From positions 1-33,293 of IMG/VR virus record IMGVR_UViG_3300049446_000003: a DNA stretch of 33,293 nucleotides, one strand, 5' to 3'. The notes under the pieces are model-generated. The model did not search any database, had not been told where the DNA came from, and saw only the letters and a program-made list of their open reading frames with translations. The DNA comes from a virus. Positions within the stretch are counted from its first letter, which is position 1. The number at the start of each line of letters is the position of its first letter. Shown here piece after piece: positions 1-14,933 of the stretch. A program made the position numbers and the translations under genes.

Positions 1-926
1 GGATTCGGGCCGGCCGCCACGCCGTTCGCGTCATTGCCCGCCGCGTCGAACGACGTGAAGTCCAGCTGCAGCGGCGTGGTCGTGTTGGCCTTGAACACGT
101 CATAGAACTCGGTGCGGGAGAAGAACTCCGTCGACAGGGTGCCGGTGATCGTCGGGATCGCGTTCTCGATCGGCTCCCCTTTCAGCCCGCTGTTCCCGAG
201 CCCGTACCTGTCCACCTTCATCGGGTTGCTGCCCGAGATGACCACGCCGTTCACCAGCGAGGCCACCGCCGCGCCCGCGGCCACGGTCGTCTCGCCCGCG
301 CTGGTCGTCGCCGTCCCGCCGATCTTGAAGTTAGTGGCGTTGGCGAAGGAGAAAAGGCCGTTCGGCGTCGGGTACGACGCGGCGGCCAGGGCCGTGGCGG
401 TCAGCTCCGTCTGCGCGTCGACCGTGACCTTCAGCTGCGCGATCTGGTTATCGTTACAGCTGAACTCCCAGTCAGTGACCTTGCACCCGACGTAGGTGAA
501 GGGCTGGACGGTGACGCCGGAGATCTGCGGCCGGCCGATCTGCGTGGTGAAGAAGAACCCGGCCTTGCTGCCCGGCGTGTGGATCTGCTTGAACGCCGTC
601 CCCAGCACGACCGTCGGCGTGACGATGCTGGAGCCGAGCGCCTGCTTCCACCAGAAGCCCATGTCATCGGCGATAACGCTCGCCGCCGAGCCGATGACGT
701 GCTCCATCGTCAGGTCGCCGTTGACATCGCTCTGCGACACGACGGTCCGGCTGGCGCGGTTGAACGCCTGCCCGGACTTCAGGCCCATCCCGTCCAGGAA
801 AGTCGGGTTGAAAACGAAATTCTCCGACAGGAACTCCCAGAACTTCGTCACGGTGACCGCCGTGGGGTAGCTGCCCTGGGCGACGGTCCCGACCTGGCTG
901 GAAAGCCCGGAGGCATACGTGGGCAT
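1..926 (-). CDS. Tail tube (major tail) protein, partial
   Basis: The gene starts at ATG 926 and runs off the left edge, so its C-terminus is missing; about 308 residues are visible. The N-terminus reads MPTYASGLSSQVGT, and the chain is rich in Thr, Ser, Gly and aromatic residues, with stretches such as TDWEFSCNDNQ, GEPIENAIPTITGTL and EFYDVFKANTTTPLQLDF. This pattern of alternating beta strands fits siphovirus tail tube proteins, which polymerise into the tube through which DNA passes. The start overlaps the stop of the upstream small gene as TGATG, so translation is probably coupled. Its place after the connector and tail terminator genes supports the call. The alternative is another beta-rich tail protein; the assignment rests on composition and context. 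Confidence 0.72.
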   Translation of the reverse strand, partial: MPTYASGLSSQVGTVAQGSYPTAVTVTKFWEFLSENFVFNPTFLDGMGLKSGQAFNRASRTVVSQSDVNGDLTMEHVIGSAASVIADDMGFWWKQALGSSIVTPTVVLGTAFKQIHTPGSKAGFFFTTQIGRPQISGVTVQPFTYVGCKVTDWEFSCNDNQIAQLKVTVDAQTELTATALAAASYPTPNGLFSFANATNFKIGGTATTSAGETTVAAGAAVASLVNGVVISGSNPMKVDRYGLGNSGLKGEPIENAIPTITGTLSTEFFSRTEFYDVFKANTTTPLQLDFTSFDAAGNDANGVAAGPN

Positions 927-1141
927 CAGGCCGCCGTCCCGTCCGCCGCCTTAGCGGCCTTTTCCGGCTTCACCTTCGGCTCGGCGACCGGTTCCCACGT
1001 GGCCTCCGGGTAGACGATCGGCGAGACGCCGTCGGGCTGGAAATCGGGGACCTCGACGGTCTCGCCGGCCTCAACATGCGCCTCGAAGCCGGGGACGATG
1101 AGGTCCCGCGGCCCGTCGGTGCGGTTCCTGACCTTGGACAT
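926..1141 (-). CDS. Small head/tail-region protein, unknown function
   Basis: This 71-residue protein starts MSKVRNRTDGP and has a GGGAGA ribosome-binding site a few bases upstream of ATG 1141. The first 45 residues look like a small beta fold (DLIVPGFEAHVEAGETVEVPD), followed by WEPVAEP and a Lys/Ala/Pro tail. The layout, a small beta module plus charged tail, resembles the 72-residue product at 8536-8754 in the same genome. The stop overlaps the tail tube start. It is probably a minor structural or joining protein; no family is firmly recognised. Confidence 0.7.
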   Translation of the reverse strand: MSKVRNRTDGPRDLIVPGFEAHVEAGETVEVPDFQPDGVSPIVYPEATWEPVAEPKVKPEKAAKAADGTAA

Positions 1142-1164
1142 GCGCTCTCCCGTACCTTGAGGGA

Positions 1165-1524
1165 ATGACCGACGCCGAATTCCTGACGCGACTGCTGCGG
1201 ATCGCGGCAGACGATGACGACATGGACCCGGGCTCGCTTGAGTTCGCGGTGATCACGGGCGGCACGACTCACGTGGCCGGGGACGCGAACGGGCCGCTGC
1301 GCGGCCAGGTCATCAAGGTGCCGGTGACGTACTGGCCGTTCGAGAAGGGCGAGATCGTCGTGCTGCCGGAGGACGGCCACCGCGAGCCGCTCGGCGCCGG
1401 GCGCAGCACCGCCAAGTGCGACGTCGTCGAAGAGCGGTTCGGCCGCGATTACGAGGCGGCTAAGCGCCGCAGCGACGAGGTGAAGGCCGCGCCTGACCGG
1501 GACGCCTTCGCGCCGCCGGCCTAG
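1165..1524 (+). CDS. Plus-strand orphan gene (moron candidate)
   Basis: A 119-residue protein (MTDAEFLTRLLRIAADDDD) is encoded against the direction of every other gene. It looks real: third codon positions are almost all G or C, the composition is balanced with acidic and aromatic residues (VPVTYWPFEKGEIVVLPEDG), and the minus strand leaves exactly this gap (1142-1520) between two structural genes. Its stop TAG interlocks with the stop of the tail terminator gene in a CTAG. The only purine-rich motif (GAGGGA) touches the ATG, too close for normal initiation, so translation may be leaderless. No family is recognised. Position and orientation fit a phage moron expressed independently of the late operon; function unknown. 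Confidence 0.72.
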   Translation: MTDAEFLTRLLRIAADDDDMDPGSLEFAVITGGTTHVAGDANGPLRGQVIKVPVTYWPFEKGEIVVLPEDGHREPLGAGRSTAKCDVVEERFGRDYEAAKRRSDEVKAAPDRDAFAPPA

Positions 1525-2012
1525 CCGCCGATCCTGGCCTTCAGCACCACCTGGAAATTCACCTGCGCGGCGACGCCGTTCGGGTTGCTGCTCTGCCGCA
1601 GCTGGCCGCCGGTGACGCCCGGGTCGGGGAACAGGATGCCGCCCAGCGCTGACCCGGGCGCAGTGCGGACCTCGTCCTCGACGGCCGACATGATCCCGTA
1701 GACCGCTATCCGCTGGGCTGCGACGTCACCGCCGCCCGACCAGGCCAGCGCCACGCACTCGATCGTGATCTCCTCGTTGCGGGCCAGCTTCCCCAGCCCC
1801 GCCCACGTCTGCTCGCTGGTCGCCGCGAGCACCTTGTCACCGGAGGTGAGCGTGTCCGTGCCGACCCCCAGGACCAGCTGCGCGGCGGCGTCGGTGACCT
1901 TCGCCCCGTCATAGACGGCGACCGGCGGTGTCGCGGCTCCGATCGTGGCCGCGTTCTGGAACAGGGTCACCAGCGCGGCGATGGCCGACGGGACGCGCGA
2001 GGTCGTGCTCAT
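1521..2012 (-). CDS. Probable tail terminator / tail completion protein
   Basis: The 163-residue protein starts MSTTSRVPSAIAALVTLFQ and overlaps the connector stop by one base. Tail terminators of siphoviruses usually have this size and this pattern: an N-terminal helix, then a short strand with a V-x-V-x-DG motif (here PVAVYDGAKV), a region rich in acidic residues and a C-terminal beta strand (AQVNFQVVLKARI). Such proteins cap the tail tube and join it to the head connector. The neighbours, connector upstream and tail tube downstream, match this role. The family call is by pattern and synteny only; a minor head-tail joining protein is the alternative. Confidence 0.6.
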   Translation of the reverse strand: MSTTSRVPSAIAALVTLFQNAATIGAATPPVAVYDGAKVTDAAAQLVLGVGTDTLTSGDKVLAATSEQTWAGLGKLARNEEITIECVALAWSGGGDVAAQRIAVYGIMSAVEDEVRTAPGSALGGILFPDPGVTGGQLRQSSNPNGVAAQVNFQVVLKARIGG

Positions 2013-2836
2013 CAGGCGACCACCGGCCGGGGCGGGCCCATGAGCTCCTTGGCCTTACTGGGGACCGAGAAGAACTCGCCGGGCTGCCGCCGGTACTCCT
2101 CCTCGCCGATCACCCCGGACATGACCGTGCCCTGGCCCCGCTGGGTCTCCCACAGGTGAGCCAGGATCACCAGGCCGCCGCGCTTGTAGTTCGCCGGGAT
2201 GACCTGGCGCCCGGCGACATAGACCACGTCCACCAGGCCGGTCACCGGCGGGCCGGCCATCACCCGCACCACCCCCGACGCGGCGGCCCGCATCTGGGTC
2301 ACGTCCCAGGTGACCGAGCCGTCCCACGCGGCCACCGACGTCAGGGAGATCACCGGCGCCGACCACAGCCGGAACCGGCGGGCGCCGCAGCCGTACCGGC
2401 CGTGCATCTCGATCTCATCGGTGACGGTGCGGCGGACGATCACCTCGCGCTTGTAGCCCTCCGCCGCGCCCGTGGCGGCGGCGATGAACTCCAGCAGCTC
2501 GGCGTCGTCGGAGTGGCTGGCCAGGTCGATGTTCAGCGCGTTCTTGGCGTCGGCCAGGCTGATGATCGCGGGCCACGGCGTGGGGGAGACGTCCCACTCG
2601 TCGTCCCATGAGGTGACCGGCCCGGTAGTGACCGCGTGGGCGGTGTACCGGCCGGGAATGGTGGTCTGCCAGGCGAGGCGGTACTGGCCGGGGACTGAGG
2701 CGTCGGTGATCGCGGGGCTGGCCGTCGTGCCGTCGGGCAGCGTGATGACCAGCGTGGCCGTGGTGGCGTGGATGAGGTTCCCGCTCGCGTCCAGGACGTC
2801 GAACGCGACCGGGTACAGGCTCCCGGAGCTGATCAC
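2012..2836 (-). CDS. Head-tail connector with N-terminal Ig-like domain
   Basis: A 274-residue protein starting at GTG 2836, in a GTGA overlap with the spike stop. Residues 90-200 (SLADAKNALNID, DDAELLEFIAAATGAAEGY, then a Tyr/Arg-rich part) resemble the gp6-like family of HK97-type head-tail connectors, helical proteins that dock under the portal. Residues 1-85 form an added beta-rich module (AFDVLDASGNLI, TLPDGT, PGQYRLAW, PGRYTAHAVT) that looks like an immunoglobulin-type or carbohydrate-binding fold. Known connectors of this family are about 100-200 residues, so this one is long. The N-terminal module may project from the particle; that is inference. Confidence 0.7.
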   Translation of the reverse strand: MISSGSLYPVAFDVLDASGNLIHATTATLVITLPDGTTASPAITDASVPGQYRLAWQTTIPGRYTAHAVTTGPVTSWDDEWDVSPTPWPAIISLADAKNALNIDLASHSDDAELLEFIAAATGAAEGYKREVIVRRTVTDEIEMHGRYGCGARRFRLWSAPVISLTSVAAWDGSVTWDVTQMRAAASGVVRVMAGPPVTGLVDVVYVAGRQVIPANYKRGGLVILAHLWETQRGQGTVMSGVIGEEEYRRQPGEFFSVPSKAKELMGPPRPVVA

Positions 2837-4875
2837 TTCAGCCCGATGAACAGGATCTGCGCCGCCGCGACACTGGAAGCCGGGACCAGCGGCGACGGCA
2901 GCGCGGTCTGGCCGGTGACGTTGGTCGCGCACCGGAAGTTCGTCGTCGCCGCGGCGCCGGTGTTGGTGATCGTCGCGTTGACGTTGTTCAGCCGCGCGAA
3001 CAGCGGCGGCGTGGCCCCCACCGACAGCAGCTCCGCCCAGACGAACGGCGGCGACAGCACGAACGGGCCGCCCGTCAGCGCCGCCGTCTTCAGCCCGGTC
3101 GACACCCACGCGGCGGACTGGTCGGCGGTGATCCCGATCTGCGTCCCCGCCGGCGTGACCAGGCCCAGCAGGTTCTGCCCGGCGGTCAGGGTGACCCCCG
3201 CCGTGCCGATCTCCAGCTCAATGCTGGTGACCAGGACCGGCGCCCGGATAAGGATCCGGAAGATGTTGACCGTCCCCGACGTCACGGCGCCGGCCACGGA
3301 GAGGGACAGCGCCGGGTCATATGTCCAGGCCAGGTAGCCCAGGTCAGACGGCACGAACCCGAGCGTCGGCGGGGACGGCGGGGTGATCACGCCCTGGGAG
3401 ATCGCGGCCTGCGTCGGCGACGGGTTCGTGATCACGGTGGCCGAGTTGCCGTTGACCGCGCTGCCCTGCGGCGACTGGTTGTTGATCAGCGTGACGTCGT
3501 TGCAGCCGTGGAAGTTCATGTACGCGTTCACCGTCGAGGACGGGGTCGGCGGCCGCACGGTGTAGCCCTCCACGTGGACCTGGGACGTGGTCGCCTCGCA
3601 CTCGACGTCCCAGGTCGTGACCCCGTCCGGGCCCTGCAGCGAACGGCCGGTGCCCGTGATCCGGACGCCCTGCGAGCCGCTGTTGCCCGCGGACGCGCCG
3701 TGGTAGAACAGCGAGTTCCCGGTCACCGGGCTCCAGCTCACCACGCCGCCGGTGGCCACCGTCCCGACAGGCGACCCGGATATGTACGTGCAGCCCGTGA
3801 ACGTGCTGCCGGCGATGCCGGTGTAGGCGATTATCGCCGTCGTCGGCCCCGACGCCGCCACGTTCAGCCGCCCCGCCGCCGGGTAGCCGGCGGTCGACGC
3901 GACCGACAGGACGCCCGCCGACGGCGACGCCCACGCCGCTATCCCCGAGATCGTCCCGCCGTTCGACCCCGCCGCCACCGTCGTCGCCAGGCCCGCCTGA
4001 CCCGGGAAGTTGTCCCACACCACGGACCCGTCCGTGGTGATGTTCTGGCCGCTCAGGCTCTTGTAGCAGCCACCGAAGCACTGCTCGAACCAGCAGTCCC
4101 GGATGTTGTCGGCGAAGTGGTAGGCCGCGCCGGTGCCGTTGCACTCATACACCACGGCGTACTGCGTGCAGTCCAGCCCGGCGTTGGTGAACTTGCACTT
4201 GAAGTGGGTGTTGTTGGATACCGCCCCGGACACCGACGACTTGATCCACACCATCGGGTTCGTCCGGATCGCGCTGGTGGTCGTGATATTCGCGCGCTCG
4301 AACAGGACGTTCAGCAGCGAGTTGACGCCGGAGGTCTGGAACGCCATCCCCGCCTGGCCGGTCAGCGTGATCAGCATGTTCCTGAATGAGCTGTCAGTCA
4401 CGTTGATCTGGTGGAACACGTCACCCGACCCGGCGTAGGAGATGCCGACGTTCTCGACCTCCAGGCCGCCCCACAGGCTGCCGCCGAACGGGAACGTGAA
4501 CAGGTGGTTGCTGTTCGACGGGCCGTTCAGCGTCACCGCCGGGTTGGTCACCGCCCCCGAGTACGACAGCGCCGCGCCCAGCCCCCGGAACCGCACCGGC
4601 CCGGTGAACGCCAGCCCCCCCGTCGCCAGGTTGTAATCCCCCGGCGGGATCACCACATCCCCGTTCAGGACCGTCGCCGCGGTGATGGCCGCCTGGAACG
4701 CCGCCGTCGAGTCCGCCACGTTCGTCGGGTCCGCGCCGCCCGCGAACTGGGTGCTGAGGACGTTGAACTGCGCGCTTGAGGCGTTCAGCGCGCGCACGAC
4801 GTTGTCCATGTCGCCGGGCGGGTCACCGGTGCCCACGGCACGGGTGTCCGGCGGAATCGTGAACTGGACGGGCAT
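2833..4875 (-). CDS. Beta-helix spike/fibre protein (pectate-lyase-like)
   Basis: A 680-residue protein starting at ATG 4875 behind a strong GGAAGGAGG ribosome-binding site 9 nt upstream. Residues 50-100 carry the hallmark of Pectate_lyase_3-type right-handed beta helices: ADSTAAFQAAI followed by VVIPPGDYNL. The middle (100-450) is repetitive, Asn/Thr/Ser-rich and Cys-containing, as expected of a parallel beta helix. The last 150 residues look like a separate beta-sandwich cap (LVTSIELEIGTAGVTL, FVLSPPFVWAELLSVG). Phage proteins of this kind trimerise and bind or cleave surface polysaccharide. Its position before the connector gene, rather than after the tail genes, is unusual, so a head-attached spike is possible. 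Confidence 0.75.
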   Translation of the reverse strand: MPVQFTIPPDTRAVGTGDPPGDMDNVVRALNASSAQFNVLSTQFAGGADPTNVADSTAAFQAAITAATVLNGDVVIPPGDYNLATGGLAFTGPVRFRGLGAALSYSGAVTNPAVTLNGPSNSNHLFTFPFGGSLWGGLEVENVGISYAGSGDVFHQINVTDSSFRNMLITLTGQAGMAFQTSGVNSLLNVLFERANITTTSAIRTNPMVWIKSSVSGAVSNNTHFKCKFTNAGLDCTQYAVVYECNGTGAAYHFADNIRDCWFEQCFGGCYKSLSGQNITTDGSVVWDNFPGQAGLATTVAAGSNGGTISGIAAWASPSAGVLSVASTAGYPAAGRLNVAASGPTTAIIAYTGIAGSTFTGCTYISGSPVGTVATGGVVSWSPVTGNSLFYHGASAGNSGSQGVRITGTGRSLQGPDGVTTWDVECEATTSQVHVEGYTVRPPTPSSTVNAYMNFHGCNDVTLINNQSPQGSAVNGNSATVITNPSPTQAAISQGVITPPSPPTLGFVPSDLGYLAWTYDPALSLSVAGAVTSGTVNIFRILIRAPVLVTSIELEIGTAGVTLTAGQNLLGLVTPAGTQIGITADQSAAWVSTGLKTAALTGGPFVLSPPFVWAELLSVGATPPLFARLNNVNATITNTGAAATTNFRCATNVTGQTALPSPLVPASSVAAAQILFIGLK

Positions 4876-4909
4876 CAGGCACTGCCTCCTTCCGGCGTCC
4901 GGTCTCTGG

Positions 4910-6733
4910 TCACTGCTGGCCCTGCCGCGCCCGGGGCAGCGGCATCTGCCCGGCCTCCGCCGCCGGGATGGCCGCCTGGCCCGCGGCGGCGCGGAAGCCG
5001 CCCGGGCCGTACAGCGGCCCGTAGGACGCCGCGTAGGCCCCGGCCCCGCCGGTCCCCGACTGCGCGCGGGCAGCAGCGGGCTGGCCGCCCCGCGCGGCGG
5101 CGATGGCCATGGCGGCCTGCCGCGCGGTGCCGTAAGTGACCGGCGCCGACGTCGCCGCGGCCCCGGCCAGCGACCCCGCGCCCGCCAGGAGCGCCGGGGC
5201 GCGCTGGACGGCCGGGGCGGCAAGGCTCCCGGTGCCGGTGAGCCCTGCAGGCGCGGACTGGGCTGCATGCGCCCCCAGGCTGCCCGCGGCGGCCAGGACG
5301 GCAGCGCCGGGCACCGCGGAGGTCCCGGCCGCGGCCAGCGATCCCGCGGCGGCCAGTGTGGCGGGGGCCGACTCGGCTGAGTGAGTGGCCAGCGACCCGG
5401 TCCCGGCGAGCAGGGCCGGGGCCTGCTGCGCCGCCGCGCCGGCCAGCGAGCCGGCTCCGGCCAGGGTGGCAGGCGCGGACCCGGCGGCGGCTGCGGTGAT
5501 GCTGCCCGTCCCCGCCAGCGACGCGGGAGCCGCCTGGACAGCGGCGGCGGCCAGCGACCCGGCGGCGGCCAGGGTGGCCGCGCCGGGAACCGTGCCGCCG
5601 CTGACCGTGCCCGCCGCGGCCAGCGACCCCGTGCCCGCCAGCGAGGCAGGCGCGGACTGTGCGGCCGCCGCAGTGAGCGACCCGGCAGCGGCCAGGGTGG
5701 CGGGAGCGGATCCCGCGGCCGCGGCAGCGAGCGAGCCCGTGCCCGCCAGGGTCGCGCCGGCGGACTGGACCGCGCCAGCCGCCAGGCTGCCCGCGGCGGC
5801 CAGGGACGCCCCCGCGGACTGGGCCGGGTGAGCCGCCAGGCTGCCCGCCGCCGCGAGGGTCGCCGGTGCCTGCTCCGCCGCCATGCCGGGCAGGCTCCCG
5901 GCGGCGGCCAGGACCGCGCCGGCGGACTGGGTGACAGCTGCCGCCAGGCTGCCCGTGCCGGCCAGCAGGGCAATGCCCGCCGGCGTCTCCGGGCCGCCGT
6001 ACACCGCCGGGTACGTCGCCGTGTAGGGCACGAACACGGCGCTGGGGACGACCGCCGCCCAGACACCCGCGTAACCGCTCGTGCCGGACGCCCACCGGGC
6101 CAGCTCTACCCAGGCCAGGCCACCGCCGCTGACGGTCATCGACACGGCCAGGCCGTTAGTGGCCACCATCGCGACCAGCAGCGACCCCGGCGGCGGCGAG
6201 AACGCCGCCGTCGTGAACGACGTGGCGTTGACCAGGCCCGACACCAGCAGCGCGTACTCGGCCAGCCCGGCGCCGAGGATCTCCGCGACGGCCACTCCGC
6301 CGTCAGCGGAGTTAGCAGTGCCGCCCGCGCTCGCCCCGGTCGTGACCGGCGTGCCCGCTACTGTCGTGACGGCCGAGCGGAACGTGCCGTAAATGCCGGT
6401 ATTGATGCTGTCCTGGACGTTCTGGCTGAACGTGCTCGCCGCGTCAGCCGTCCACACGCCCGACGTGTGGTTATCGGCGGCCGCGCCGTAGACCAGCGAC
6501 CCGGTACGGGCTGGGGTCAGCGCCACCTCGGCGCCCAGCGCCAGCTCGGCATGCGAGGCGGTGGCCCCGGTCCCGGCCGCGCCGGTGACCACCGCGACGG
6601 TGACCGCCATGCCGCTGCTGGGGGTGCCGCCCTGGGCGGCAGTGACCGACAGCGTGAGCCAGCCGGCCGGGGCCGCCCGCTGCCGGTGCCGGAACCGCCT
6701 GGCCCACGTTCTTCCCGGCTGGGCTAGCGGCAC
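4910..6733 (-). CDS. Fibre-like protein with ~15 tandem 18-residue repeats
   Basis: The 607-residue protein probably starts at GTG 6733, preceded by GGGATGAGG. Residues 1-250 are a Thr/Ala/Gly/Ser-rich beta domain (GVWTADAASTFSQNVQDS, SGGGLAWVELARW) like those of particle-surface proteins in Streptomyces phages. Residues 253-532 are an array of about fifteen 18-residue repeats with the core LAxxGSLxAxxxxSAPA. Residues 533-607 are Gly/Ala/Tyr-rich (YGPLYGPGGF) and end RARQGQQ. The repeats suggest a long fibrous shaft whose length can change by recombination. The gene lies between capsid and connector, so it could be a head fibre or a displaced tail fibre. No enzyme domain is seen. Confidence 0.68.
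   Translation of the reverse strand: MPLAQPGRTWARRFRHRQRAAPAGWLTLSVTAAQGGTPSSGMAVTVAVVTGAAGTGATASHAELALGAEVALTPARTGSLVYGAAADNHTSGVWTADAASTFSQNVQDSINTGIYGTFRSAVTTVAGTPVTTGASAGGTANSADGGVAVAEILGAGLAEYALLVSGLVNATSFTTAAFSPPPGSLLVAMVATNGLAVSMTVSGGGLAWVELARWASGTSGYAGVWAAVVPSAVFVPYTATYPAVYGGPETPAGIALLAGTGSLAAAVTQSAGAVLAAAGSLPGMAAEQAPATLAAAGSLAAHPAQSAGASLAAAGSLAAGAVQSAGATLAGTGSLAAAAAGSAPATLAAAGSLTAAAAQSAPASLAGTGSLAAAGTVSGGTVPGAATLAAAGSLAAAAVQAAPASLAGTGSITAAAAGSAPATLAGAGSLAGAAAQQAPALLAGTGSLATHSAESAPATLAAAGSLAAAGTSAVPGAAVLAAAGSLGAHAAQSAPAGLTGTGSLAAPAVQRAPALLAGAGSLAGAAATSAPVTYGTARQAAMAIAAARGGQPAAARAQSGTGGAGAYAASYGPLYGPGGFRAAAGQAAIPAAEAGQMPLPRARQGQQ
5138..5977 (-). repeat. 54-bp tandem repeat array coding 18-residue repeats
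   Basis: About fifteen diverged copies of a 54-bp unit lie inside the fibre-like gene. The fixed core at protein level is L-A-(A/G)-(A/T)-G-S-(L/I), with an A/P-rich linker ending mostly in QSAPA or GSAPA. Two units carry short insertions (after AAAGTVSGGTVPG and AAAGTSAVPG). The GCC/GGC-rich DNA also leaves long open frames on the opposite strand, which are artefacts of composition. Confidence 0.85.
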
Positions 6734-8784: not shown

Positions 8785-11379
8785 CTAGCCGACGACCAGC
8801 AGGCGGAAGGCATTGGGAATCAAAACGGTGCTGTTGTTCCGCCACCAGCAGTAATAGCCGCGCCTGCCGGTCGGGAACTGACCCTGCGCGGCGCCGAAGA
8901 CCGTCGGGACCAGCTCCATGTTCATCCCGACCCGGTCCACGATCAGGAACCCGTGGCCGAAGTCGCCCATCAGCAGCGGCTTGTCACCGGTCGCGTTGGT
9001 GGTGACCATGTCGGAATCCTCATAGGCGTCGTAGCCCCACAGCTGCCGCGGCTGGCCGAGCGACGGCCGGTTCCACGGGTCGGTCGCGAAGCCCGTCTGC
9101 GCGGCGAACAGGTTCCGGTACTTGTTGAACGTCGTCTTGCTGGCCAGGTAGGCCGCCAGCGCGCGGAACCGGGGCGCCATCGCCGACTCCAGCGTCTCGG
9201 GGTCCTTGAACGACAGGGTCGCCACGCCGCCGGTGCCGGTGATCAGCGAGCCGCCGGACTGCAGGGCGACGACACCGCCGGCGGTCACGCCGGTGCCGGG
9301 GCCGTTGGTGAACGACCCCGACTCCTCCACGTCCTTCGCGTCGGACAGCAGGCTCATCATCGAGGACTGCAGCCCCGTCCAGTCGCCTTCCAGCTCGACA
9401 GAGAACGGGATCCACCCCGACACCCGCTTGGGCTGCAGCGTCGGCTGCGCCAGGGTCGGGGAGTTGTCCGTCTCAGCCGCGAACTCCGCCTTCCGCGACA
9501 CCACCACGCCCGTCGAGGTGACCAGGTCGAATTCCTTGCCGGTGATCCGCTCCACCCGGGAGATCTGCCGCAGCGGGTTGATCACCCCGTTCGTGGTCAG
9601 GATCACCGTCGGGTCCAGCTGGAACGGCACGGCGAACGACCCCGTGTCCGACTCGCCCAGGGCCAGGATCTCCGCGTCCCGGCCCGTCGTCGGCGGCCGG
9701 CCAGCGGCCAGCGCCCGGCCGAACACCCGCGAGTACTCCGGCGACCCGGTCGCCAGGATCCGCCGCGCCACCCACCCGGTCGTGTCATCAGCGATCGTGT
9801 CGAGCAGGCTCGCCGCGTTGGCCTGCGACGTCTCCCGCGACTTCGACCCCGGGAACCGGTGCTCCTCGATCGCCCGCAGCGCGTTGTCCCGGTACAGCGC
9901 CGGGAGATCCTCCGCATTGCGGGCCTGCTGCCGGATCGCGGCCAGGTCATAGATGTCATGCGACGGCCGCGACGCCGGCGCGCCGAACCGCTGCGACGGG
10001 GCGCCCTGGCCGTTCCCGTTCCCGCCGCCCTGCGGGCGGGACTGATCGTGGCTCGCGCCGTTCCCGCCGTGGACCTGCGCCAGCACCGCGTTGCGCGCGT
10101 CGACCGCGTCGAGGGCGGCCTGGTGATCGCGGCGCTCGGCGACCAGCTGGTCCCACTCGGCCTGCGTGTCGGGCGGGAGCACCGCCGCGGGGTAGGCGGC
10201 GGCGACCTCAGTCAGCCGGCCGCTGATGTCGGTGATCCTGGTCCGGCGCCCCTCGATGGTGAGAGCGCCCTGGGCGTCGGTCATGTTGTTCCTTCCGCTC
10301 GATGCTGTCGCATCGTCACTGGGGCTGATCGCCTTCATGTGCGCCTCAAGGTGCGCCCTGGCCGCGGCCTCGTTGGTCAGGCCGCTGGTCTGCGGCAGCC
10401 GGGCCAGCGCGTTCCGGGTCCCGTCGGGATCCGCCGGGCCGCCCGGGTGCGCGTGGTGCGGCAGCGCGTACGCCGCCTGGGTCTTCGGGTCGCCGTCCCT
10501 GCGGCCCGCGCAGATCGCCGCCAGCGCCGCCGCCGGGTCGTCGGCGGACGAGGCAGCCGACAGCGCCGCGCCGCCGTCCCACGCCAGGACCGGGCCCGCC
10601 GCGGCGCTGTTCGGGGTGGGATCCTCGGCCGGCGGCTGGCCGGGCACGGGCTTGCCGGGGACTGACTTCTTCTGCTTCCCGTCCGCGGTCCAGTGCGAGT
10701 GGTCGGTGTCGCCTTCCGGCGTCGAGTCGTCATCACCGTCACCGTCGGGATCCCACCGGGCATGGCCGGCGGCCATGATCCCGCCCCGCATCGCGGCGGA
10801 AGCGCCCGCGGGCGCAAGCGCGGGCTCGCGGGCCGTCCCGCAGATCCCGGTGATCAGCCCCGCCTCCAGCGCCTTCTCCGCGGTGAACCACGTCTCCGCC
10901 TTCATCACGCCACGCCAGTGGTCCGCGGTGCCGCCCGCCGTGTCCGCGTACACCTGCGCGATCTGCCCGGACACCATGTGCAGCCGGTCAACCATGTGCT
11001 GCAGGTCATCAGCGTTCCCGTCGATACCCGCCCACGCGTCATGCAGCATCAGCTGCGACGTCTTCGCCGCCCATCGCTTCTGGCCGGCCATCGCGATCAG
11101 CGACGCCGAACTCGCCGCGATCGAGTCAACGAAGGTCTCCACGCCCGGCCGGGCCACCAGCGCGTTATAGATCGCGTACGCCTCGAACACGTCGCCGCCG
11201 TCAGAGGCAATATGCACGTCGACCGGGCCATTCACCGCGCCAAGGTCCCGGATGAAATCCTTCGCGGACACGCCCCACATGCCGATCAGGTCGTACAAGA
11301 GGATCTGCGCCGGGCCAGCCGACTGGTTAGTGATCCGGTACCAGCCGTCGCCGCCGCTGCGATCGCGTGCCCTGGTCAT
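8785..11379 (-). CDS. Head maturation protease fused to HK97-fold major capsid protein
   Basis: One 864-residue reading frame encodes two head proteins. Residues 20-185 are a ClpP-like head maturation protease: ASDGGDV (59-64), Ser90 in IAASSAS, His113 in MLHDAW and Asp146 in YADTAGG form the likely triad. Residues 186-365 are an acidic linker plus a module with ALPHHAHPGG and ARAHLEAHMKAI, also seen in other phage proteases. Residues 366-500 are helical and probably act as the scaffold (delta) domain; 500-864 are an HK97-type capsid protein (GSFAVPFQLDPTVIL, VINPLRQISRVERITG, C-terminal GYYCWWRNNSTVLIPNAFRLL). It overlaps the portal stop by ATGA. A strong internal start at 10284 probably yields free capsid protein. 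Confidence 0.88.
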   Translation of the reverse strand: MTRARDRSGGDGWYRITNQSAGPAQILLYDLIGMWGVSAKDFIRDLGAVNGPVDVHIASDGGDVFEAYAIYNALVARPGVETFVDSIAASSASLIAMAGQKRWAAKTSQLMLHDAWAGIDGNADDLQHMVDRLHMVSGQIAQVYADTAGGTADHWRGVMKAETWFTAEKALEAGLITGICGTAREPALAPAGASAAMRGGIMAAGHARWDPDGDGDDDSTPEGDTDHSHWTADGKQKKSVPGKPVPGQPPAEDPTPNSAAAGPVLAWDGGAALSAASSADDPAAALAAICAGRRDGDPKTQAAYALPHHAHPGGPADPDGTRNALARLPQTSGLTNEAAARAHLEAHMKAISPSDDATASSGRNNMTDAQGALTIEGRRTRITDISGRLTEVAAAYPAAVLPPDTQAEWDQLVAERRDHQAALDAVDARNAVLAQVHGGNGASHDQSRPQGGGNGNGQGAPSQRFGAPASRPSHDIYDLAAIRQQARNAEDLPALYRDNALRAIEEHRFPGSKSRETSQANAASLLDTIADDTTGWVARRILATGSPEYSRVFGRALAAGRPPTTGRDAEILALGESDTGSFAVPFQLDPTVILTTNGVINPLRQISRVERITGKEFDLVTSTGVVVSRKAEFAAETDNSPTLAQPTLQPKRVSGWIPFSVELEGDWTGLQSSMMSLLSDAKDVEESGSFTNGPGTGVTAGGVVALQSGGSLITGTGGVATLSFKDPETLESAMAPRFRALAAYLASKTTFNKYRNLFAAQTGFATDPWNRPSLGQPRQLWGYDAYEDSDMVTTNATGDKPLLMGDFGHGFLIVDRVGMNMELVPTVFGAAQGQFPTGRRGYYCWWRNNSTVLIPNAFRLLVVG
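10282..10296 (-). promoter_or_regulatory. Internal ribosome-binding site and ATG for free capsid protein
   Basis: Read on the minus strand, GGAAGGA lies 5 nt before an in-frame ATG at 10284 (codon 366 of the fused frame, opening MTDAQGALTIEG). Initiation here would give a 499-residue scaffold-plus-capsid protein, the usual length for this family, in excess over the full fusion. The site is as strong as any start in the window. Confidence 0.65.
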
Positions 11380-13151: not shown

Positions 13152-13742
13152 CTATTCCTGGTAGGCGTCGGGATTGCGCACCGGCAGCACGCCGCCCTGG
13201 TGCATGATCGGCACCCGCTCCGGGCCCGGGGTCAGGAAAAACGGCCGCGGCGGCGGGTGCAGCAGCGCCCACACCGCCAGCTCCGCCGCCATCAGCGGCG
13301 ACTGATCCACCGGAACCTTCCGCTCCAGCGCCGCGGCGCCCGCCAGCGGCCGGTCCATCGCGGCCCGGACGGCATCGGTCAGCTCCTTCTGGCCCAGGTG
13401 CGCCAGGTCCCCGGCCGCGATCATGTCGAGGAACTCGCCGTGCGCCACCGCCACGTCCCGCGCCGACGGCTCCAGCGCCACGATCCCGGCATCCTTCAGC
13501 GGCTTTACCAGCGTCACCGCCTGCGACTTGGGGTCAATCACGAACGCCAGCGGGCGGTACCGGGCCTTCAGCTGCACCAGCCGGCCCACCGCCAGCGACG
13601 GGTGACCCTGCGGCAGCCGCAGCTCCGCCACCACCCGGCCGCCCGGCTCACGCCACGCCGCCACGATCGAGCACAGCTGCCGGGATCCGGAAATCTCGGC
13701 TCCGAACGCCACGTCACCGGGAACGAACGCGCCCGCAGTCAC
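13152..13742 (-). CDS. Large terminase, nuclease half (separate gene)
   Basis: A 196-residue protein starting at GTG 13742, overlapping the ATPase stop as GTGA. It matches the RNase H-like nuclease domain normally fused to the terminase ATPase: VAFGAEISGSRQ (first strand, acidic residue Glu in place of the usual Asp), FVIDPKSQA (second acidic residue), then DLAHLGQKELTDAVRAA and DQSPLMAAELAVWALL (third acidic residue and closing helix). It would cut concatemeric DNA at packaging start and end. Being encoded apart from the ATPase is unusual. Confidence 0.78.
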   Translation of the reverse strand: MTAGAFVPGDVAFGAEISGSRQLCSIVAAWREPGGRVVAELRLPQGHPSLAVGRLVQLKARYRPLAFVIDPKSQAVTLVKPLKDAGIVALEPSARDVAVAHGEFLDMIAAGDLAHLGQKELTDAVRAAMDRPLAGAAALERKVPVDQSPLMAAELAVWALLHPPPRPFFLTPGPERVPIMHQGGVLPVRNPDAYQE

Positions 13743-14677
13743 GACGCCGGCCTCAGGCCCGGCTCCGCGCACGCCAGCCACGCATCCTGCCCGATCACGC
13801 CCCAGCCCGGCTTGGCAACCTCCGGCCACTGGCAGAGATAGGCACGGCGGAACTCGGCCAGCTCCATCGTCACGAAGTCAGCCGCCACCGTCTCCTCGCT
13901 GACCGTGATCCCCAGCGCCGGCATGCACCCGTACCACGTCGACCGGTCCCCCGGATCCGCGTCATCCGGCGCCGAGTAGCCGAAGTAGCACGCCGTGTCC
14001 GTCAGCCCGGACTCCGCCGCCTCCCGGCCGCCGCCTACCTTGCCGCGGAAATACGACGACAGCTCATTGCCCGCCGTCGACACCACCCACAGCTGCGCGT
14101 GGTCGCGGGTCATCATCGCGGGCCTCACTGCCTGCTCGATCGTGTCGTCCCGCTGCGCCCACGCCTCATCGATCACCGCCAGGTCCAGCGTGTCGCCGTG
14201 ATCGGAGGCCTCCGTCCCCGACGCCAGCATGATCATCGACCCGTTCGCGAACGTGAACGCCTCCGACCCGTAGCCCTTCCGGATGCCCATCACCTTGCGC
14301 AGGCCCGGTGACTTGCGGATCCGCGGCCACCACGCGTCAAGGAACCGGCGCCGCCCAGCCAGCCGCGTCTGCGCCGAGTAGCTGATCATCGTGCCCGGCT
14401 TCTCCAGCCCCCGCGCCACCATCAGCGACAGGATGCTCACCGACTTGCCCTGCTGCCGCGGCTCCTCGATCACCACCTGCCGGAACGCGGGCAGGCCGCC
14501 CCGGCCTACCTCAGTCCCGGTGGCGACGATCTGCAGCTGGTGCGGCATCAGGCCGCGGAAGCCCAGCGCGGTCGCCGTCCAGGCCACCTTCGGCGCGAAG
14601 CTGTCCCGGCCCGGCGACGCCGGGGTCGCCCACCTAGGCCTTGCTGAACCCGGCGAGAAACTCCGCGAGCTCGCCAT
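13739..14677 (-). CDS. Large terminase, ATPase half (separate gene)
   Basis: A 312-residue protein with start chosen at ATG 14677 (MASSRSFSPG), seven bases after GGGGAAG; it overlaps the small terminase by 44 bases. Motor motifs are visible: deviant Walker A EEPRQQGKS (71-79), Walker B DLAVIDEA (165-172) and the coupling motif WVVSTAGN (197-204). The chain ends at GQDAWLACAEPGLRPAS, the linker that in ordinary terminases leads into the nuclease domain. It powers DNA translocation through the portal. The missing nuclease is supplied by the next gene. Confidence 0.85.
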   Translation of the reverse strand: MASSRSFSPGSARPRWATPASPGRDSFAPKVAWTATALGFRGLMPHQLQIVATGTEVGRGGLPAFRQVVIEEPRQQGKSVSILSLMVARGLEKPGTMISYSAQTRLAGRRRFLDAWWPRIRKSPGLRKVMGIRKGYGSEAFTFANGSMIMLASGTEASDHGDTLDLAVIDEAWAQRDDTIEQAVRPAMMTRDHAQLWVVSTAGNELSSYFRGKVGGGREAAESGLTDTACYFGYSAPDDADPGDRSTWYGCMPALGITVSEETVAADFVTMELAEFRRAYLCQWPEVAKPGWGVIGQDAWLACAEPGLRPAS

Positions 14678-14933
14678 CGGCACTCTTCCCCATCAGCGAC
14701 TGCAGGGTCATCCGCAGCTCCCTGGCCAGGCTCGCGTTCCCCGGATCGGCATGGTGCGCCGCCGCTAGCCGCGCCGCGAGCAGCCTCATCTCAGCCTCCG
14801 GGTCCTGCGCGGGCGCGGCACCGGGCGGCGGCGCGGCCAGCTTCAGGGCCGCGCAGTCGCGGCGGCAGAGGGAGTGATCACCGGCGGCGTGGGCGCGCTT
14901 GCGGCGCGACCGCACCGCCTCGCTATCGGCCAT
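14634..14933 (-). CDS. Small terminase subunit
   Basis: A 99-residue protein starting at ATG 14933. The N-terminus (MADSEAVRSRRKRAHAAGDHSLC) is a basic DNA-contact region with a Cys/His motif seen in small terminases of actinobacterial phages. The remainder is helical: EMRLLAARLAAAHHADPGN, LARELRMTLQSLMG and a C-terminal EFLAGFSKA that could contact the large subunit. Small terminase binds the packaging site and stimulates the motor. It sits between a repeat-rich non-coding stretch and the ATPase gene, as expected. The ribosome-binding site is weak. Confidence 0.78.
   Translation of the reverse strand: MADSEAVRSRRKRAHAAGDHSLCRRDCAALKLAAPPPGAAPAQDPEAEMRLLAARLAAAHHADPGNASLARELRMTLQSLMGKSADGELAEFLAGFSKA

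Follow-up and report, generated by a model that had tools for sequence, protein, structure and literature searches.

A reverse-strand gene in the head-tail operon of an actinobacteriophage-like siphovirus is probably a moron-like accessory cassette with a leaderless start

Why does a single gene run backwards inside the structural operon of a phage, how might it be expressed there, and what might it do? These questions are raised by a 33,293-base IMG/VR virus contig from an actinobacteriophage-like siphovirus of soil (GC about 72%), the whole of which is called the window here. The minus strand of the window encodes terminase, portal, a protease-capsid fusion, a tail-spike-like protein, a head-tail adaptor, a 163-aa protein, a 71-aa protein and the tail tube; elsewhere there are genes for an HTH repressor-like protein, a DNA methyltransferase, RusA, RecT and RecE. 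The only clue to the host is a weak tail-tube match (32%) in an Actinomycetota MAG. A preliminary description had placed a lone plus-strand gene at 1142–1524, within the operon, and had suggested that it may be a moron that changes the lysogenised host, for example by exclusion or toxicity.

Some features of the operon were recorded in their own right. The large terminase is divided between overlapping ORFs (13739–14683 and 13152–13742, minus strand) that match consecutive parts of phrog_9, and this arrangement (13152–14683) may be a true split, a frameshift or a sequencing error. A single 864-aa ORF (8785–11379, minus strand) joins the head maturation protease to the major capsid protein, resembling the annotated fusion of Rhodococcus phages such as Shagrat. 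The tail-spike-like gene (2833–4875, minus strand), with a weak match to phrog_2234, is placed with the head genes, upstream of the adaptor; this position is unusual and is shared by the related contigs L008 and L009.

The position of the reverse gene was defined first by its neighbours. The 163-aa gene (1521–2012, minus strand) matches phrog_22863 (E 1.3e-12) and, compared with annotated phages, occupies the tail terminator position; the next gene downstream is the conserved 71-aa gene (926–1141, minus strand). Between them the minus strand is empty from 1142 to 1520 (379 nt), and the plus strand of this gap carries one ORF, at 1165–1524, with an ATG start, a TAG stop and 119 codons. The end proposed in the preliminary description was thus correct, while its start, 1142, is the first base of a 23-nt spacer that precedes the gene. 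The description was also right that a high-GC3 gene of 119 residues fills the minus-strand gap, and that the stops are interlocked: the palindrome CTAG at 1521–1524 supplies the TAG stop of both the reverse gene and the 163-aa gene. The GC content at the three codon positions is 0.73, 0.48 and 0.92, and the codon score, 0.44 bits per codon, resembles that of the operon genes (about 0.45–0.6).

Of 300 gaps of 379 nt simulated with an order-2 Markov model of the window, 35 (about 12%) held an ORF as long as this one, so its length is not significant by itself. Its reality follows instead from conservation. Using the tail tube as query, 32 related contigs were collected, and homologues of the focal protein were found on the reverse strand at the same junction in L029 (69% identity) and, in L043, one junction further along, where the 71-aa gene meets the tube (62%). 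Two more, in L056 and L121, are nearly identical to each other, match at 56% and have an N-terminal extension. Over 117 codons, the differences between the window and L029 fall 24, 18 and 60 at codon positions 1, 2 and 3, giving dN of 0.23, dS of 1.1 and a dN/dS of about 0.2; the ratio against L043 is weaker (dN 0.30, dS 0.52). These comparisons indicate that the ORF is a true gene whose product evolves under purifying selection. In the window, as in L043, one antisense frame is open. Coding on the minus strand across the interval was rejected on the codon statistics, on stops in every antisense frame of the L029 homologue, and on 13 relatives in which the neighbouring genes abut. A conserved minus-strand protein over the interval in relatives, which would have overturned the original gene reading, was looked for and not found.

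The homologues in L056 and L121 are found in a reverse island that also holds a DUF6221 gene and that, again, has a tail tube gene (PF18906) next to it (both families tested in L056). This tube belongs to the same Pfam family as that of the window, yet gives no tblastn match to it. In L056 the island adjoining the tube (4351–5521, plus strand) consists of three genes, namely the DUF6221 gene, the extended focal homologue and a 70-aa gene. DUF6221 is a family of actinobacterial genomes and phages and is not known as a marker of lysogeny.

Next we compared the junction between the 163-aa and 71-aa genes across about 26 independent relatives. Thirteen were empty, with −1 to 14 nt from stop to start, and 13 were filled, with 175–861 nt between the operon genes (15 rows, less the near-duplicates L009 and L038). 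A further filled slot, in L218, came from a second collection pattern, whose matches were mostly chance and outside the group. The inserts are small reverse ORFs which, the focal family included, fall into about ten families with no convincing mutual similarity by BLASTP. In the window, L029, L031, L078 and L218, the insert takes its stop from the CTAG palindrome in which the 163-aa gene ends, made up of that gene's final codon and its stop; the interlocked stops therefore mark an insert that fills the slot exactly to its neighbour's stop. One other family is shared by L008, L028 and L218, the L028 copy being broken by an in-frame stop. Both L008 and L028 have stacked inserts, and within the L028 stack (4893–5776) there is an internal copy of the start element described below, beside an apparent truncated start of the 71-aa gene. 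The stacks and the truncated start point to repeated recombination at the slot.

The slot of L037 holds a predicted membrane protein (2309–2662, minus strand) with its own Shine-Dalgarno sequence, possibly an exclusion candidate to judge by its topology. Reverse HNH-type endonuclease genes are inserted between the 71-aa gene and the tail tube in L030 (5187–5969, minus strand) and L033 (about 5191–5972, minus strand), that of L030 having an HNH_3 and a weak NUMOD3 match. Homing endonucleases were rejected as a general explanation, the focal gene and the other inserts not being of the HNH type.

What the unrelated inserts do share is their start. In the window, the 23-nt spacer at 1142–1164 reads in both directions. 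On the minus strand it contains GGGAG (1147–1151), the ribosome-binding site (RBS) of the 71-aa gene, 5 nt from its ATG; on the plus strand it contains TACCTT (1153–1158), a predicted −10 box of the form TANNNT that ends 6 nt before the ATG of the focal gene and is the only such site in the window. This two-way element, here called the head, has the consensus CTCC(C)GTAYNNTG-N5/6-ATG, that is, CTCC(C)GTAnnnT and, 6–7 nt further on, a reverse-strand start codon. It is present in 12 of the 13 filled junctions, mostly before unrelated inserts, and in none of the 13 empty ones. Reverse genes at two further junctions also start behind this head. Besides the 71-aa gene, the operon gene adjoining the head can be the tube, as in L043, or, as in L090, L100 and L101, a 217-aa gene that lies downstream of the capsid. 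On the operon strand, GGGAG is the RBS of the adjoining gene, 5–8 nt from its start. In L090 (4161–4442), L100 and L101, the reverse gene before the 217-aa gene encodes a 93-aa protein of a family beginning MTDEDEK.

Across 16 heads, CCGTA, T12 and G13 are invariant, as are thus the TA and T of TANNNT, while positions 10 and 11 vary. A search pattern derived from the first examples was found 13 times in 34 contigs, at most once in each, and the reversed control pattern was not found at all. Within the group, all 7 distinct hits of a pattern scan had a start codon at the correct distance, compared with 5 of 65 hits elsewhere. The heads of L059, L078, L102, L090, L100, L101 and L218 were found by the pattern and then shown to have the same arrangement. 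With a single head in the window and at most one per contig, a dispersed regulatory repeat of the stoperator kind was rejected. In L041 the CTCCCG part has been lost and TACGGT-N6-ATG is kept before a 68-codon reverse ORF, an arrangement that would separate the promoter role of the head from its ribosome-binding role. The heads of L028 and L037 are dead, and the insert of L037 and L038 has an ordinary Shine-Dalgarno sequence behind its dead head.

How might the focal gene be read from such a head? TANNNT boxes and leaderless starts are common in actinobacteria; in M. tuberculosis and S. coelicolor, about a fifth to a quarter of the genes whose primary starts have been mapped are served by leaderless promoters (PMC3898074, PMC4895711). 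Since the distance from the end of TANNNT to the start codon is 6–7 nt, the first transcribed base would be the first base of that codon or one next to it. The focal gene has both features expected of a leaderless gene, a −10 box at about this distance and, as the preliminary description had noticed, no spaced Shine-Dalgarno sequence: GAGGGA directly abuts the ATG. Its suggestion of leaderless expression gains from the comparison, since mutually unrelated genes at the same junction share a start that fits a leaderless promoter. A possible −35 box, CTGACC (1128–1133, plus strand), lies 19 nt upstream of the −10 box, inside the 71-aa coding sequence; it resembles the S. coelicolor motif NTGACC (PMC4895711) but is weak and not kept at other junctions. 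A scan with the sigma-70 consensus found no promoter, and no −35 is conserved. As in known leaderless actinobacterial promoters, TANNNT would put the first transcribed base at the start codon, with a weak or absent −35 and a preference for ATG (PMC3898074, PMC4895711); what differs is that the head is known from phage sequence alone.

The product offers few clues. It is small and acidic (pI 4.7) with no obvious membrane segment, and is therefore probably cytosolic. The sequence had been called unfamiliar, and indeed nothing significant was found in Pfam, PHROGs, PADLOC, NCBIfam or PDB sequences. Searches by tblastn gave no relative in annotated phages and, with the L056 homologue as query, none in phages and plasmids. 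No relative appeared among GTDB genomes in a first scan that reaches close relatives only, or in a second scan of 396 genomes, run with no positive control. AlphaFold models had a mean pLDDT of 41 (4 sequences) or 44 (5 sequences), too low to be used in a fold search.

Measured against the published list of moron characteristics (PMC2920897), the focal gene behaves as a moron in several respects. It is an addition between genes that lie side by side in relatives, as the 13 empty junctions attest; its homologues in L056 and L121 place it in more than one kind of phage; its slot is a hotspot with different genes in different phages; and it may have its own transcription control, here predicted from a TANNNT at the leaderless position, with neither a conserved −35 nor a consensus sigma-70 match. 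Unlike morons, it has no detectable terminator (none between 900 and 2100 in a scan for simple T-tailed hairpins) and differs little in GC (0.708 against 0.724 for the contig, inserts being slightly lower than their contig in 10 of 12 relatives). The inserts are also always reversed, and about ten unrelated ones have a common start element, which is at the same time the RBS of the neighbour. Lacking a detectable terminator and a clear GC difference, the cassette is called moron-like rather than a full moron. The earlier moron proposal thus holds for an accessory gene inserted into the operon, but no family, defence model or fold backs exclusion or toxicity, family and defence-model searches having given no match to a described anti-phage defence or exclusion family.

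Taken together, the focal feature is probably a single-gene, reverse-strand, moron-like accessory cassette with a leaderless start, set in a head-tail slot, independent of the late operon and on when that operon is silent. In the mechanism we propose, the −10 box within the 23-nt spacer would set the transcription start at the A of the ATG, and the host housekeeping polymerase would transcribe from the head a leaderless mRNA that is translated without a Shine-Dalgarno sequence. The focal gene would be on as long as late transcription is off, in a prophage or immediately after entry; once the late operon is active, polymerases running antisense through the gene would shut it down. The cassette could be exchanged without harm to the operon because the RBS needed by the operon gene that follows lies on the opposite strand of the spacer. 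The small acidic product would not serve the virion but would target the host or competing phages; such an effect is our guess at the likeliest role for a gene in this position. We infer the promoter function of the head, the on-state while the late operon is off, the shut-off by antisense read-through and the target of the product. Lysogenic expression is plausible in a group that includes phages with integrases: a tyrosine or serine integrase is carried by 7 of 19 longer related records, so the group is at least partly temperate. A search of the window for the two families gave none.

A rather unlikely alternative is that this is an ordinary early or middle lytic gene, such as one for a host take-over protein, which happens to face backwards and to which lysogeny is irrelevant. 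The DUF6221 gene in the L056 island and the lack of an integrase in the contig would suit such a gene, whereas the integrases of the longer relatives speak against it. A start independent of the late operon is compatible with both states, and the data do not separate them.

The head could also be a recombination scar and nothing else, RBS homology allowing blocks of genes to be swapped, with a TANNNT that has no promoter function and inserts that are weakly expressed or silent. Heads may indeed descend from one ancestral block and so be shared by descent rather than selection. The head includes the next gene's RBS, the truncated 71-aa start beside the internal head of L028 implies that recombination did occur there, and two heads are dead. 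Nevertheless, T12 and the 6–7 nt distance to the start are invariant while adjoining positions vary, L041 retains the promoter half alone, and purifying selection acts on the focal protein, all of which makes the scar improbable as the whole account.

The product could instead belong to the virion or help to assemble the head-tail junction, with backwards transcription serving regulation. This would explain the location among head-tail genes, but is very hard to reconcile with the absence of the gene from 13 relatives of otherwise the same gene order and its replacement by unrelated proteins in others. Least credible of all is a spurious ORF in GC-rich DNA: for all that chance would yield this length in about 12% of such gaps and that one antisense frame is open in two contigs, it is contradicted by a reverse-strand protein conserved in four other contigs, by the dN/dS and third-position bias against L029, by the closed antisense frames of L029 and by the lack of a minus-strand gene in 13 relatives.

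The preferred reading, a moron-like cassette with a leaderless start, can be set beside several known systems. By analogy, the closest precedent is Corndog gene 53 with promoter PL2 in the Cluster O mycobacteriophages, where likewise one gene of a structural operon is turned backwards and a leaderless SigA promoter is predicted at its start codon (PMC4351075). The likeness drawn here is one of description. Corndog gene 53 is a single gene conserved across one cluster and reported to encode a DNA-binding protein, and the available part of that account describes no swapping of unrelated genes behind a shared head (PMC4351075). The start-associated sequences of Cluster K mycobacteriophages are similarly short and conserved; they have a Shine-Dalgarno core and are associated with many small genes at their starts (PMC3203893). 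They differ in being GGGATAGGAGCCC, in having many copies per genome and in their proposed role in translating the gene that they precede (PMC3203893), whereas the head described here has another sequence, at most one exact copy per contig, and faces two genes. That unrelated reverse genes are swapped at fixed junctions of a late operon, each behind the same two-way head, seems to be new in the open-access literature searched.

More tentatively, the head (about 20 bp) may be a portable two-way element that plugs unrelated genes into late-operon junctions, each on only when the virion genes are silent and turned off by late antisense transcription; we regard this general form as possible rather than probable. 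Annotation tends to miss such genes because they are short, reversed and without an RBS. If the proposal is true, a one-line DNA pattern would locate independently expressed accessory genes inside the late operons of uncultured actinobacterial phages, and about ten unrelated candidate host-modifying proteins would be available at one site. It would also give a concrete model of how temperate phages gain genes without disturbing virion production.
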